Under the pieces are notes generated by a model. That model had not been told where the DNA came from and searched no databases. It saw only the letters and a list, made by a program, of their open reading frames with translations. Source: Antennarius striatus (Eukaryota > Chordata > Actinopteri > Lophiiformes > Antennariidae). From it: a DNA stretch of 64,000 bases. Of this stretch, positions 1,504 through 54,132 are shown in pieces. The stretch's first letter is position 1; every line of letters begins with the position of its first letter. Both the position numbers and the translations under genes were made by a program. The stretch covers positions 11,234,501 to 11,298,500 of the forward strand of contig NC_090797.1 in the NCBI RefSeq assembly GCF_040054535.1. Direction: 5' to 3'.

Positions 1504-2402
1504 TCATGCTAGCCAGGAATGATGCTGGAGCTGCTTCAGAGAGGGACGCTGCTGAGGGTCCTCAGCCAGACACAGACGCAACACATTTTGGCAGTTTGGA
1601 GAGAAGTTCTGACCAATGCGGAGGCCTTTCTTCAAGAAGAGGCTTGTCTTAAAGTGTCCGTGCAGCATTTCGTAGAGAACCACTCCGATCTGCCACACAG
1701 TAACAGGCCTACTACAGTACTCTAAATTTGTGACCCACTCTGGTGGAGCCAAGCTAGGAGTTCCAGTATAGACACCTTCAACTGTATCCCCGTCATTAAT
1801 GAACATGCTTAGACCAAAGTCAATTAGCCTCAAACGGGGAACATCAGTCCTGGTGTCAACCAAGATATTTTCCATTTTAATGTCTGCATGGAAAATCTTG
1901 TTGGCATCAAGTTCTCTAACAGCTTCAACCAGCTGCTTAAATAAGAGTCTGGCCTCCCCTTCCTCCAAGGTACCTCCTTTGGAATTCTTGTATTCACAGA
2001 GGTCAACTGCTGAAAATGGAAATTCCATGACGATGATGAGTTCCTCCTCTAGGTCATAGTAGTCCAGGAGGGAAATTGATGCAGACTTGCCAAACGATCC
2101 TCCTGCTTGTTGAGACATCTTCTTCATGAAGAGCACTTCAAGAGGAATCTTGCTCCTGTCCTCGTCTTTACGGAGAACTTTGGCCTGGGGAATGTGCTTG
2201 ATTGCGACATGGAAACCATCTTCTTTCCTGTAACCAGCATACACAAATCCCTGGCCTCCACCACCGAGTTGGTGCAGTTGACAATATTTAGCCTCAAACT
2301 GAGCTTGACTGACTCCCTTGTCGTGCTCCTGTGTCTCTGCGGATTGACATTGAGACTCACGTCGCCTGGTATGGATTCTATCCATTAGGGATATTTTAAG
2401 TC
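1504..2402 (-). CDS. Pim-like kinase domain exon (terminal exon)
   Basis: The exon begins after a strong acceptor (CTTCCATTTCAG) and encodes the whole kinase fold without an intron. Positions below are in the 622-residue model. Glycine loop [12 protein letters not shown] is near 369-380, the ATP-binding lysine in VAIKH is 392, and the helix-C Glu is about 412. The catalytic loop is [10 protein letters not shown] with Asp 497 and Lys 499, and DFG is at 518-520. The activation segment ends in PPEW instead of the usual APE, and [11 protein letters not shown] follows; both are Pim hallmarks. Catalytic Lys, Asp and DFG are intact, so it is probably active. Oddity: the HRD arginine is replaced by alanine (HAD). 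The 312-codon frame continues 40 bp further upstream into the intron, giving an alternative start at 2442, but the splice model fits better. Confidence 0.88.
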
Positions 2403-5400
2403 CTGAAATGGAAGTCAGAAAACGCCCCTTTAGTACCTTCACTACCTGATCAAAATGGTTATGTGAACTAGCGCTTGAAGCTGACAGAGCAGGTTTGTCT
2501 TGTATTGTACTGAAGTGGTATTTTGAGGTACTTCTACTTCATGTTAGAAAGTAAGACAAACTTTTCACTGCTTTGCTTGAAAAAGTTCACATAAATTGTG
2601 ATGATCCTGCTCGAGACAGTAGTGGACTAAATTTAAGAGACTTTACTTACTTGAAAATAAACCCGCCTGTTGTTCAGCCTCCTGAGTCTTTGCAAGGTCA
2701 ACAAGGTGATGAGAGGTTGTGCTCTGATGAGGAGGCAGAGGTCGGCCGTCCTGAAGTTTGTCGTCAGCTCTGCGTCTTCGCAAACGCTTACGAACTGTCA
2801 GGAACATCACAAAGATCTCATTACTTTAAACTCTAAATTGTTCTAGATATTAATATACAGACACTGATTACAAAGACATATTAAAGCTCACCAATTTCAA
2901 ATTTCATCATGCAATAACCTAAACATACCAAACATACATACAGTCTTAACCGTATTAACATAACCCTTTTATTCTGGTACAGAAAATGAACTACAGTTCC
3001 TGTAATTATAGCAAGTTATTAGATCTCTAATGTTGTTGAAAGTCATTGTGCTTATTGATTATGATTCAATTAACAGAAGTCCGCTGTGATAAAGAACTGA
3101 AAACAGTTCCTGATGCACCACTAATGTGTATTTTAAATCTTTTCAATGACATCAGAAACCACCCAGTTAGTACCTTCACTACCTTATCAAAATTGTTACT
3201 AGAACTTTTTTTTTTTAAATTAACTGTATTGATCCCCGTAAGGAAATTATTCATCCACTCTGTATTAGGTGGTTGCATATAAATATATATGGAAGTGGAT
3301 TAAATTTCTTCACAGATGTCACTTACGTGAAAAAAATAAACCTGTTTGTTGTTCCGCCCTCTGCGTCTTTCTTTCGTCAAAAAGGTCATCAGAGGTCTTC
3401 CTCCATACAGCCTCCTGCGTCTTGGTGGCAGACACAGACTCAATCTCTTGGCTTGAGCCCTGCAAAGGCAGAAGTTGGGTCTCCTGAAGTTTGTCATCAG
3501 CTCTGCGTCTCCACAAACACTTGTGACCTGTCAGAGACATCATATAAATCTTACTCCTTTAAAGTCGAAATTGTTCTACACATTACCATACAGACATTGA
3601 CTACAAAGATGAATAAAAGTTAATAAATTTGAAATTTATTTTGCAATAATCCAAAAATACCAAAAATTCAGAAAACAAACAACATAATCCTTTTTACTTT
3701 GGTACATAAAAAAAGTGAAGACAGTTCATGTGATTACAGCAAGTCAGATCTCTAATATTGTCTAAAGTCATTGTGCTTCTTATGATTTAAAATGGTTACC
3801 AGAACTACAGGTTTAAATTGATAGAGCAATTCGAGGTACTTCTACTTCATGTTAGAGAGGATCTTTTCGCTGCCTTGTTTGGAAAAGTTTATAAAAACTG
3901 TGATGATCCAGCTATAGACAGTAGTGGATTAAATTTCTTCAGAGACATCACTTACGTGAAAATAAACCTGTCTGTGGTTCAGCCTCCTGAGTCTTTGTGA
4001 AGTCAAAAAGGTCATCAGAGGTCGTCCTCCATGCAGCCTCCTTCGTCTTGGTGGCAAACGCTGTCTCACTCTCTTGGCTTGAGCCCTGGAAAGGCAGAGG
4101 TTGGCTCTCCTGAAGTTTGTCATCAGCTCTGCGTCTCCACAAACACTTATGACCTGTCAGAGACATCATAAAAATCTTACTCCTTTAAAGTCTAAATTGT
4201 TCTACACATTAACATACAGACATTGACTACAAAGACAAATAAAAGTTCATCAATTTCAGATTTCATTTTGTCAGTGGTGGGCAGTCAGGACCAGCTAGGC
4301 CTTCGCTGCCGGCCTTACATAACCAGAAATCATGATAATATTTATGCTAAAAGTTAATTATATTTTAATGCATTTTCCTTAAATAAATCTATTTAAATAC
4401 AGTATATGTATAAATATATGTACATATACATTGGGATATAATACAGCATGGTCCAACACTGGGTCAGTGTTCTATTTTTAGGCTAAAGAGGTTTTATCCA
4501 ATCAGAATTCAGGTAGGTTGTGTTGCCAGGTTGAATGAAATCTGTCCAGGGCCTTTAATCTAGATTGTAAGGGTCCCTGCACTGTGAGTGTACGCGCAAA
4601 TATAGTTAATACACAGATGTGATAGCCTATCAGATCACAAGTTGCGACTCTAAGGCCTTCTAGCTGGCCTTGCGTTGTCCTGATACGTACGTGTCCTGTG
4701 ATTGGATACTCACTTCAAATCTTCTTGTTTTTTTGCTCCATCAATGGCTGGAGGAAAAAACGAAGATTTGGTCGCCCGATCCCTAGCTAGCTAACTAGCT
4801 AACCTGTCCCAGGCTGCAAAAGACTTTGTGCACCATTTCCAGATAACTAGTTACAAGCGGTACTCATGGCTGACCGGCTCCGAGGGATGCTGCAAATTGT
4901 TCAGCTGGAAATGCCTTTTGTTTGCAAAGCATGGATTTGGTCTTTGGAGCCACACTGGACTTGAATTTTTTAATCAAGGCAGCAAAGAGACACCAAAGCA
5001 CGACTGCACATTTGCTTTTAAAAACTTCTGGGGGCACAAAGAGTGGATTCGCAGCTCAAAGAAGAAGTACACAACTAAATGGAACTTCTTTATTTTCTTG
5101 CTGGGCATGACACAAATCAGCATTACCAGATGTTCTGGTAAACAGTGTTTACTGCCACCTAAAAGCGCTTTAAACAATAAGAGTGTGGGAAAAGGTAATA
5201 CTGATAGAAGGTGGTTTAATTTTTTTACTGGGATGTTCTCCAGCACCCCTAAATCCGCGACAGCGGATGACGCGGATTTAGAAGATGAATAAATGAATGA
5301 TTAATATTAATTTAATTATAGAACTAGAAGTTAAAGCTGAAAGAGCAAATTTGTCCTATGTATTGCGCTGAAGTGGAATTCTGAGGCATTTCTTCTTCAT

Positions 5401-7443
5401 GTTAGAATGGAAGATGAACATTTTTACTGCGTTGTTTGCAAAAGTTTACATAAAAATGGTGATGATCCTCCCATAGACAGTGGTAGATTAAATCTCTTCA
5501 GAGACTCCACTTACGTGAAAATAAACTTGTTTCTTGTTCAGCCCTCTGACTCTTTGTCAACAAGTCAACGAGGCCATCAGAGGTGTTCCTCTGATGAAGA
5601 GTCAGAGGCTGGCTCTCCTGAAGTTTGTCATCAGCTCTACGTCTCCACAAACGCTTATGACCTGTCAGAGACATTACAAAAATCTCATTACTTTAAACTG
5701 TTCTACACATTAGTATACAGACACTGACTACAAAGAAATTAAAGTTCATTAATTTCAAGTTTCATTTTGCAGTAATCCAAACAGTTAACACCAATCATAT
5801 ACCAAATAGTTAAAAAATAAATAATCTCTTGCATCTTGTCAAGAAAATGAACTGAAGAAAGTTCCTGCGATTTCAGCAATCTATTAGATCTATAATGTTG
5901 TCTTGTCATTGAGCTTATTGATTATGATTCAAATAACTAAAGTTCTTCTTCTCTATTCGACTTTTCCCTTCGGGGGTCATTCCTCTTTGGGCATCCTGTC
6001 ATAAGCTTTTTCCAAATCTACAAAAACACAGTGCAGCTCACTCTGGCCTTAGCAGTACTTCTCTATCAACATCCTCAAAGTAAATACTGCATCTGTAGTA
6101 CTTTTTTTGGCCTAAAACCATGCTACTGCTCACAAATGCTCACTTCTGCCCATAGTCTAGCTTCAACTACTCTTTCCCATAACTTCAGTGTATGGCTCAT
6201 CAGCTTTAATCCTCTGTAGTCACCACAACTCTACACATCTCCCTTGTTCTGAAAAATGGGCACCTCTGCATCATGTCAACCAACTCTCTACCTTCTCCTG
6301 TCACAGTTCCAACATTTAACATCCCTACTCTCAGTCTTATACTCTTGGCTTTCCTTTTCTCTCTTCCTACAAACACTTTTCTCCTCTCCTTCGACCAACA
6401 GCAGTCCAATTTCCACCAGCACCCTGTAGGTGAACAGCACTGATGACGGTCGTTTTTAACCCGATCCTCAACCGATCCGGTATGGAGGTCATAGGTTTTA
6501 TTCGCATGTTTGATTTTACAAATGTTTTACATCGGATGCCCTTCCTAACACAACCCTCTGTATTTATCTGGGCTTGGGACCGGCACATTAAGACACTGTC
6601 TTGTGCCCTTTTGCAGCTACATTCTTTAAATAACTAAAGTTACCTCTGATAAATAATAGTTCCTGATGGACCACGTTAGTACCTTTACTACCTGATCAAA
6701 ATGGTCACTAGAACTGAAGCTGACCGGGCAGATTTGTCTTATGTATTGTACTGAAGTGGAATTCTGAGTTACTTCCTCTTCATGTTAGAAAGGAATGAAC
6801 TTTTCGCTGTGATAATCCTGCTATAGACAGTAGTAGATTAAATTTCTCCAGAGACGTCACTTACGTGAAAATAAACCTGCCTGTGGTTCAGCCTTCGGAG
6901 TCTTTGGAAGGTCATAAGAGCTCTTCCTCTGATGAGGCGGCAGAGGCCGGCGCTCCTGAAGTTTGTCGTCAGCTCTGCGCCTCCGCAAACGCCTATGACC
7001 TGTCAGAGACATCATACCAATCTCATTCAACTCCAAATTGTTCTACACATTAGCAAACAGACACTGACTACTAACACTATGTTGCTGGAAGTTTTCTGCT
7101 CCTGGTAGAGTCACACAAGTCAAACAAGTCTCAGGTGAAGGGCCAGACAAATGGTTTAGAAGACCCCATGAAAGAAACAAGGAGGGAAAAAAGTGACCCT
7201 AGGGGGAGGAAGCCCGGGGCCCACGTGTAGAGCCGGGCCTGGATTGACCGTTGACAATGACAGAGACACCTGGAGGGGCGTGGTTGAGAGGAATGGCCTC
7301 CCTGATCTAAGCACAAGCGGTGTCATGTTGTTGAACTTCTGTGTTAGTCATGGATTATCCATAACTAACAACATGTTCAAACACATGGATGGACGGACGT
7401 ACGTACGGACGTACGGACGGACGGACGGACGTACGGACGGACG

Positions 7444-7481
<38 letters not shown>

Positions 7482-8296
7482 TAGATAGATGTGACCCGCG
7501 ACAGCAGAAGTGGGTCCCATGATCCGCCATAAGTCACCTCTGATGAATAAGTAACAGTTCCTGATGCACATTAATGTGTGTTGTACGTCCTGTCATTGAC
7601 ATCAGAAAGCACCCAATTGGTACCTTCACCAGCTGATCAAAAAGGTAAATTTAAGCCATTTGGCTGAGGTCCGCTCACAAAAGTGTGAAGATCCTGCTAT
7701 ATACAGTAGTGAATTTAATTCGTTCAGACTTCACCTACATGAAAATAAACCTGTCTGATGTTCTGCCCTCTGAGTGTTTTTGGGGTCCAAGAGGTCATCA
7801 GAGCCCTTCCTCTGATAAGGAGGCAGAGGCTCCTGAAGGTTGTTGTGAGCTCTGCGTCTCCAAAATCGCTTATGACCTGTCAGAGACATCATACAAATCT
7901 CATTAAACTCCAAATTTTTCAACACATTAATTTAATTAATTTACAGATATTGATTTCATAGTGAAATTAAAGTTCACTCATTTCAAATTTCATTTTGCAA
8001 TAATCCAAAAATAACAAACATACTTAAAACATAATAACATAACCCTTTTTACTCTGGTACAGAAAATGAACTGAAGACAATTCCTGTGATTACAGCCGGT
8101 TATTAGATCTCTAATGTTGTTTAAAGTCATTGTATTTTGTTTTTGATAATGTTTCAAATCTCTGAAGTCACCTATGACAAATAAGTTCCTGATACACCAA
8201 AGGTGAATTTTCTCTGTTGAACTATTTTCATTTGATAAAACAATGTGAATAAGTTTTCCACAGCTGGAATTAAATGTTAGTGGACTTACGTTTCAT
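1504..8296 (-). CDS. Pim-like Ser/Thr kinase gene with six tandem N-terminal exons (gene model)
   Basis: Predicted eight coding exons on the minus strand: 8290-8296 (start), 7739-7876, 6865-6999, 5515-5661, 3956-4153, 3327-3527, 2651-2794 and 1504-2402. Their lengths (7, 138, 135, 147, 198, 201, 144, 899) sum to 1869 bp, which is 622 residues plus stop. All junctions are phase 1 and no stop interrupts the joined frame. Residues 1-324 are six copies of a 45-67 residue repeat. Each opens with a basic motif like [15 protein letters not shown] and ends near GLFS. Residues 325-622 are the Pim-type kinase domain. The family phosphorylates Ser/Thr and Pim-like genes are strongly expanded in fish. 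The repeat's role is unknown; its basic clusters resemble nuclear-localisation signals (inference). Copies may be all included, skipped or used alternatively. Transposon insertions between exons C/D, D/E and E/F all fall in introns. Confidence 0.75.
2651..2794 (-). CDS. Repeat exon A of the Pim-like gene
   Basis: 144 bp, phase 1-1. It follows an acceptor ending CCTGACAG and is followed by a perfect donor GTAAGT. It reads [15 protein letters not shown] and then a more variable Pro/His/Gln-rich part ending AGLFS, with no stop. It lies closest to the kinase exon. Joined to it, the split codon is A|GA (Arg). The opposite strand also happens to be open here, but it loses its frame in other copies. 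Confidence 0.72.
3327..3527 (-). CDS. Repeat exon B of the Pim-like gene (long form)
   Basis: 201 bp, phase 1-1, with acceptor GTCTCTGACAG and donor GTAAGT. It begins [15 protein letters not shown]. Like exon C it carries an extra stretch of about 55 bp (LQGSSQEIE...ATKTQEA) absent from copies A, D, E and F. Exons B and C therefore look like the most recent duplication pair. No stop in frame. Confidence 0.75.
3956..4153 (-). CDS. Repeat exon C of the Pim-like gene (long form)
   Basis: 198 bp, phase 1-1, with acceptor GTCTCTGACAG and donor GTAAGT. It begins [15 protein letters not shown] and shares the extra middle segment with exon B. On the opposite strand the equivalent frame has stop codons within this copy. 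That argues that the minus strand is the coding one. Confidence 0.75.
4272..5140 (+). mobile_element. hAT-like DNA transposon remnant
   Basis: It starts with a CAGTGGTGGGC tip like those of fish hAT elements. A related tip occurs at 19283. From about 4830 the plus strand reads a TTF/ZMYM-type zinc-finger segment ([34 protein letters not shown]), the N-terminal region typical of hAT transposases. The catalytic part is absent and one expected Cys has become Ser. The element sits in the intron between repeat exons D and C of the Pim-like gene. Confidence 0.6.
5150..5225. repeat. Fragment of a small inverted-repeat element
   Basis: The stretch around GAGTGTGGGAAAAGGTAATA matches the interior of the intact element at 12232-12539 and another piece at 9125-9175. 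It joins the tail of the hAT remnant, so the apparent protein frame running through here is not a real gene. Confidence 0.6.
5515..5661 (-). CDS. Repeat exon D of the Pim-like gene
   Basis: 147 bp, phase 1-1, with acceptor GTCTCTGACAG and donor GTAAGT. It reads [15 protein letters not shown], then a short variable acidic/Ser-Thr part, ending TSLFS. Open throughout. Confidence 0.75.
5945..6640 (-). mobile_element. Internally deleted RTE-like non-LTR retrotransposon
   Basis: On the minus strand it runs from a 5' part (a GGAAGGGCATCCG-type leader near 6540), through an endonuclease start ([17 protein letters not shown]) and a reverse-transcriptase piece near 6220-6020, to a 3' tail with AGAAGAAGAA near 5945. 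Large internal parts are missing. It is inserted in the intron between repeat exons E and D. The subfamily call is from memory of fish repeats and is tentative. Confidence 0.65.
6865..6999 (-). CDS. Repeat exon E of the Pim-like gene
   Basis: 135 bp, the shortest copy, phase 1-1, with acceptor GTCTCTGACAG and donor GTAAGT. It begins [15 protein letters not shown], the most arginine-rich copy, and ends AGLFS. Open throughout. Confidence 0.74.
7190..7385 (+). mobile_element. Non-LTR retrotransposon endonuclease fragment
   Basis: The plus strand reads [18 protein letters not shown], then [19 protein letters not shown]. This is the same endonuclease segment as in the element at 225-1420, in the opposite orientation. 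It is truncated by the tetranucleotide repeat that follows and lies in the intron between repeat exons F and E. Confidence 0.7.
7386..7491. repeat. Tetranucleotide microsatellite (GGAC/GTAC/ACAG/ATAG)
   Basis: About 26 tetranucleotide units that change type along the tract, from GGAC/GTAC to ACAG and finally ATAG. It begins exactly where the retrotransposon fragment stops. Confidence 0.95.
7739..7876 (-). CDS. Repeat exon F of the Pim-like gene
   Basis: 138 bp, phase 1-1. The acceptor is GTCTCTGACAG; the donor is GTAGGT, the only one of six that is not GTAAGT. It reads [15 protein letters not shown] and ends TGLFS. First copy after the start exon. Joined to exon E the split codon is T|GT (Cys), where the other copies give C|GT (Arg). 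Confidence 0.72.
8290..8296 (-). CDS. Start exon of the Pim-like gene (ATG AAA C)
   Basis: ATG AAA followed by one base and a perfect donor GTAAGT. This leaves phase 1, exactly what every repeat exon and the kinase exon need. Joining C|GT gives MKR, then HKRF. The 5' end of the exon and its promoter cannot be placed. Evidence is positional plus phase only, hence moderate confidence. Confidence 0.55.

Positions 8297-19088: not shown

Positions 19089-54132
<35,044 letters not shown>

Follow-up and report, generated by a model that had tools for sequence, protein, structure and literature searches.

Why would a single fish kinase gene carry six copies of one short exon in a row? The question is raised by a stretch of 64,000 nucleotides from Antennarius striatus (C22:11234501-11298500 of a 548-Mb genome; hereafter the window), whose minus strand holds a Pim-like kinase exon preceded by six similar short exons. 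Based on the analysis described here, the array is most likely a six-copy tandem duplication of the middle exon of a Pim-like kinase gene, with several or all copies probably spliced serially into one mRNA.

Read along the minus strand, the gene begins with a start exon at 8290..8296 (ATG AAA C before the donor GTAAGT), which contributes seven coding nucleotides and ends in phase 1. Six repeat exons follow, each in phase 1-1: R1 (7739..7876, 138 nt), R2 (6865..6999, 135 nt), R3 (5515..5661, 147 nt), R4 (3956..4153, 198 nt), R5 (3327..3527, 201 nt) and R6 (2651..2794, 144 nt). R5 has its nearest relative in R4, with which it shares a 54-nt insert, and R6 adjoins the kinase exon (1504..2402), which is entered at 2402 directly after ...TTTCAG and comprises 299 codons, the first of them split, followed by a TGA stop. 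The donor is GTAAGT in R2-R6 and GTAGGT in R1, and all six acceptors read ...GACAG. The repeat exons differ pairwise by 11-26% and vary in length, yet each length is divisible by 3. Joining the start exon, R1-R6 and the kinase exon gives 1869 nt, or 622 codons plus stop, with no internal stop. An earlier interpretation of this DNA, made from its letters alone (the sequence-only reading), had described six tandem exons; its coordinates, lengths, phases and splice dinucleotides proved exact on rechecking. The exons are embedded in larger repeated units, and homology extends into the intron on either side, as expected of tandemly duplicated exons. Introns between neighbouring repeats measure 428-1361 nt, the unequal spacing resulting in part from additional intron sequence, for example a tetranucleotide microsatellite between R1 and R2 and a further stretch between R2 and R3.

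The identity of the kinase is well defined. Its exon matches Pfam Pkinase with an E-value of 9.8e-42, and the best 42 of 1795 matches among solved structures, of which the best 60 were examined, are PIM-2 and PIM-1, aligned over the whole domain; the next family is SNF1/AMPK, with the E-value falling from 2.1e-40 to 6e-22. The closest known family is that of the Pim serine/threonine kinases (PIM-1, PIM-2, PIM-3). The catalytic residues are in place, with the GGQG glycine loop, the Lys of VAIK, the catalytic Asp of HADIK, DFG and PPEW all present. The window kinase differs from Pim kinases in its N-terminal exon repeats and in having HAD for HRD, an Arg to Ala exchange found in the window kinase and in the five paralogues examined. 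It also lies in one exon, compared with six exons in mammalian Pim genes according to a figure legend (printed 'codons') in a review (PMC10380471). No relative of the window kinase was confirmed in viral contigs.

Is the repeat exon peculiar to this gene? Genome-wide, 73 kinase matches were found. The close ones, 29 in all, comprise the window gene and a cluster of 28 paralogues (73-78% identical) at C22:12.38-12.89 Mb, 1.1-1.7 Mb away from it. In the cluster, 25 kinases are full-length and three are partial (12637012, 12809917, 12875578). This count leaves out 35 distant kinase matches and nine C22 fragments, namely seven C-terminal pieces with TAA plus two pieces derived from interrupted kinase exons (12636825, 12876222). 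Repeat exons were counted by pooling two peptide searches, checked by a third, and each exon was assigned to the first same-strand kinase exon downstream of it; coverage of the middle of the cluster came largely from search matches, five 3.9-kb loci and 241-base stretches, and the counts are lower bounds. The window gene came out with six exons and every cluster kinase with one (28/28), the latter being the single-copy state within this genome. All 28 paralogue exons are open, in phase 1-1 and bounded by AG and GT, two of them carrying an in-frame 6-nt deletion. The exon lies 3.5-8 kb from its kinase in three cases (12645753, 12760919, 12776615) and 0.25-1.2 kb in the others. Beyond the window gene and the cluster, the three peptide searches of the genome found no repeat exon, save one match on C9 with an E-value of 1.4.

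The start exon also recurs in the family. A pattern composed from the window gene and four paralogues, ATGAAA(C/G) followed by GTAA(A/G) with context, has 30 matches in the genome, one in the window and 29 in the cluster, compared with none for a reversed-pattern control, and at 12 paralogue places the sequence matches the 5' region of the window gene with 78-80% identity. Nine of the ten paralogues in long stretches were assembled from start exon, one repeat exon and kinase exon (the tenth, whose kinase exon is interrupted, was left out), and all nine read open over 343-352 residues. Since the repeat exon is kept across the gene family, in 28/28 paralogues and together with the start exons, these exons are real in that sense, and the window gene is the one member with extra copies. 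The claim that the copies represent present or former exons of a Pim-like kinase gene is thereby upheld, with PIM proteins as the best matches.

Some features of the cluster deserve mention in their own right. Its start exons outnumber its kinase exons, 29 vs 28; the start exon at C22:12419085-12419109 has no exon or kinase match ahead of the next start exon and is probably a gene remnant. The seven C-terminal kinase fragments (residues 222-292, one TAA each; C22:12441748, 12684850, 12702093, 12729581, 12771161, 12823501 and 12866611) each follow a same-strand cluster kinase exon at a distance of about 0.85 kb, and are apparently leftovers of a partial duplication copied together with the cluster. 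The paralogue exons are of two types, V1 and V2. The cluster is apparently recent; 19 of the 27 V1-type exons encode identical 44 residues. V2 (L010, exon C22:12380303-12380446) is 73% identical to V1 in the exon segments, 91% in the kinase segments and 82% in the start regions, and the 3' end of its exon encodes a differing, lysine-rich tail. An interspersed repeat in the R2-R3 intron of the window gene (6263-6620) has an inverted copy, 81% identical, within the V2 start-exon intron (C22:12378684-12379038).

How could the array have arisen? The ancestral layout would have been a start exon, one short exon and one kinase exon, and tandem duplication would then have raised the number of middle exons to six. 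The copied unit, some 0.6-0.75 kb long unless lengthened by an insertion, would start within the start-exon intron (at about 8211), span the exon together with the intron that follows it, and end some 10 nt into the kinase exon. Its approximate right edge is marked by a direct repeat at 2392..2469 (minus strand), comprising the end of the downstream intron and the first ~10 nt of the kinase exon. Self-comparison located homologues of this segment in array introns at 3129-3206 (77%), 7579-7656 (72%) and, more weakly, 6638-6715 (62%). The homologue at 3129-3206 continues into start-intron homology, so that the stretch 3074..3192 on the minus strand of the R5-R6 intron forms a unit junction, passing from kinase-acceptor homologue to start-exon-intron homology (8211 onward). 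In the R1-R2 intron, a remnant of the region around the kinase-exon 3' splice site (7587..7637, minus strand) matches the V2 paralogue at 84% over 51 nt.

The sequence-only reading had emphasized that copies can be joined in any number without frame loss. This holds as far as frame neutrality is concerned, but not as a separate adaptation, since the single exon of the family is already in phase 1-1: with a symmetric parent exon, each added copy preserves the frame and the phase matching needs no extra explanation. In trees of R1-R6, V1 and V2, only the pair R4 and R5 was resolved (support 98-100); the next best pair, R2 and R6, reached 81 in the exon-only tree and was missing from the flanked tree. 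Mean pairwise dS among the repeats is 0.29, and the window kinase differs from five cluster kinases by a dS of 0.24-0.26; the array is therefore about as old as the split between the window gene and the cluster. For the direction of copy-number change, one gain at the window gene is the simplest assumption. An ancestral array with different copies retained in V1 and V2 was considered in view of their 73% exon vs 91% kinase identity; it is not claimed, as their start regions are also just 82% identical.

Next, we asked whether six copies could have stayed usable by chance. That a copy is open says little by itself: sense frame 0 is also open in 5/6 copies, and so is antisense frame 0. Retention was simulated under neutrality, with assumed settings of a consensus ancestor, a star tree and 0, 0.10 or 0.15 indels per substitution, one third of them in frame. 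At 0.11 substitutions per site and copy, all six copies remained open and spliceable with a probability of 1.4e-3 without indels, and of 1.7e-6 and 8.6e-8 with the assumed indels. Because R4 and R5 share history, five independent copies were also counted, giving 4.3e-3 without and 1.6e-5 and 1.3e-6 with assumed indels. Across all settings tried, the probability lay between 7e-3 and 1e-9 for six copies and between 1.6e-2 and 4e-8 for five. Chance drift leaving all copies open, in frame and spliceable is thus unlikely, in agreement with the sequence-only reading, which had considered random retention of all six hard to explain. The exon alignment is codon-based and forces gaps to multiples of 3, so the independent fact here is that the six lengths are divisible by 3.

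Constraint on the encoded residues is uneven. Against selection stands the pairwise dN/dS among the repeats, 0.53-1.04. In the first 15 codons, which are basic, pN/pS is 0.36 (0.19-0.82), and a pN as low as this was obtained in 1.3% of random draws of 15 ungapped codons; the remainder of the exon shows a pN/pS of 0.99. Mean divergence is 0.19 for the exons, 0.26 for the upstream intron and 0.36 for the downstream intron, although these intron means take in badly aligned parts (R2 upstream, R5 downstream). We read the repeats as being under selection for frame and basic motif, with the rest of each module apparently only loosely constrained.

If the copies are spliced in series, the N-terminal tail of the kinase would be a concatemer of modules of about 45-67 residues, each headed by a basic motif with a 16-residue consensus, and the series would lengthen the basic tail of the kinase; paralogues would have a single module. 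The likeliest role for such a tail may be an effect on the location or the partners of the kinase, because regulatory domains are said to be absent from Pim kinases and the N-terminal extension of the 44-kDa Pim-1L has been suggested to put that kinase at the plasma membrane (both from PMC10380471).

Several observations weigh against serial splicing into a functional tail. The pyrimidine tracts of the repeat acceptors are modest (8/14, vs 11/14 for the kinase exon). Over whole exons pN/pS is 0.76 (0.51-1.18), an interval that includes 1, and it rises to 0.93 with V1 and V2 added. Even for the first 15 codons, pN/pS becomes 0.57 when V1 and V2 are added, again with an interval including 1, and V1 paralogues have lost the RRR motif in part. 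Several well-aligned intron pairs diverge by 0.15-0.25, which is about the exon level. V2 and the window gene have in common an early Met in the kinase exon that could act as a start. Finally, the evidence at this locus comes from DNA, from which we infer the splicing, the joint inclusion and the role of the tail in localisation or interaction via the basic motif.

A start inside the kinase exon that skips the array, which the sequence-only reading had named as one case against itself, appears weakened. The Met in question lies six codons into the kinase exon of the window gene and V2, and it is missing there in the eight V1-type members of the nine paralogues read; conserved start exons occur at 30 places. 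In these eight paralogues the first kinase-exon Met comes 21 codons in, a position without Met in the window kinase.

The explanation that competes best with serial splicing is that the copies are mutually exclusive or cassette exons, used one or few per transcript, which would give kinases with one module that varies in sequence. Tandemly duplicated exons are often tied to mutually exclusive choice (PMC9013439), the paralogues hold a single module, and the symmetry of all copies keeps the frame safe under any choice. Moreover, the modules are unlike in charge, and past the first 15 codons their pN/pS is about 1. On the other hand, joint inclusion of symmetric exons costs no frame, and introns of 428-1361 nt pose no steric block to the joining of neighbours. 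We regard exclusive or cassette use as possible but rather unlikely.

The array could also be a relic in which only R6, or none of the copies, is in use and the others are decaying. A whole-exon pN/pS not significantly below 1, intron pairs that diverge no more than exons and the kinase dN/dS of about 0.6 against the cluster would all fit such decay. It is made improbable by the fact that six copies have kept their frame, a length divisible by 3 and their two splice sites despite a mean pairwise dS of 0.29, an outcome for which the neutral simulation gave the low values reported above for six and for five copies.

An elaboration of serial splicing, which we put forward with considerable reserve, would make the tail a modular regulator: the count of self-phosphorylation or pseudosubstrate sites, and with it activity or location, would depend on how many modules are spliced in, and copy number would serve as an evolvable dial, set to one in the 28 paralogues and to six in the window gene. 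That the array might tune the number of basic repeats per kinase had also been a suggestion of the sequence-only reading. Pim kinases favour basic sites. A consensus peptide given in the review cited above (PMC10380471) agrees with this preference. A basophilic R-x-x-S motif stands at an invariant Ser in R1-R5; it is missing in R6 and V2, and V1 does not have it at that Ser.

Alternate first exons with their own promoters, which would provide alternative N-termini, have a precedent in the duplicated first exons ahead of common exons in UGT1A (described in PMC9013439), and alternative N-termini had been one suggestion of the sequence-only reading. For the window gene we rejected this arrangement as very improbable: none of the six repeats contains a Met, every one of them (6/6) has a 3' splice site, and a separate start exon is conserved. 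That the array is a non-coding tandem repeat open by chance is barely credible, and was likewise rejected: the frames open in 5/6 copies on both strands would allow it, but the same open, phase 1-1 exon stands upstream of 28/28 paralogue kinase exons, accompanied by start exons, and the neutral simulation disfavours it.

How does the array of duplicated exons in this gene compare with known systems? Tandem exon duplication is common (PMC9013439, PMC9741552), and a 2002 study cited in PMC9013439 reported tandemly duplicated exons in about 10% of animal genes. Like obscurin, Dscam1 and UGT1A, the window gene has adjacent homologous exons with homologous intron sequence; it differs in that its six copies can be set against 28 paralogues with one copy in the same genome, an internal single-copy reference. 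Among the titles and abstract openings of the literature searched, which was mostly without subscription papers, there was no Pim kinase with a repeated-exon array. The repeats themselves have no significant match in Pfam (one sub-threshold match, R6 to UPF0193, E 0.12) and none to solved structures at E-values up to 1. A likeness by description is offered by the zebrafish NLR-B30.2 family, a fish-expanded immune family whose N-terminal extensions hold several peptide repeats of about 30 residues, with the N-terminal peptides on single exons and the NACHT domain in one large exon (PMC4852459). The likeness of the repeats is one of description, and the large exon encodes NACHT in one case and a kinase in the other. 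No FISNA/NACHT exon was found downstream of the repeats, where the kinase exon stands; the only FISNA place on the contig is C22:11602343, and the whole genome has only nine FISNA-type NLR places. FISNA is a domain of the fish NLR family (PMC4852459), and its presence fits a teleost genome.

The locus provides a natural experiment within one genome, in which 28 kinase exons have one linking exon each and one outlying relative has six. The window gene and the cluster permit a direct comparison of the effect of an exon array on splicing and on the kinase N-terminus. Should every repeat be translated, the gene would encode a Pim-type kinase whose tail is repeated, in a family to which regulatory domains are not ascribed; otherwise it would still be a tidy case of tandem exon duplication held in frame.

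Exons of two further putative genes were noted in the window. On the minus strand, exons between 20038 and 29117, with Y_phosphatase in 20038-20427 and fn3 in 28752-29117, belong by the look of it to a receptor-type tyrosine phosphatase gene. On the plus strand, an exon at 15141-15530 matches the HMG box (PF00505) with an E-value of 1.2e-4, just below the curated cut-off; by eye, it may be HBP1-like.

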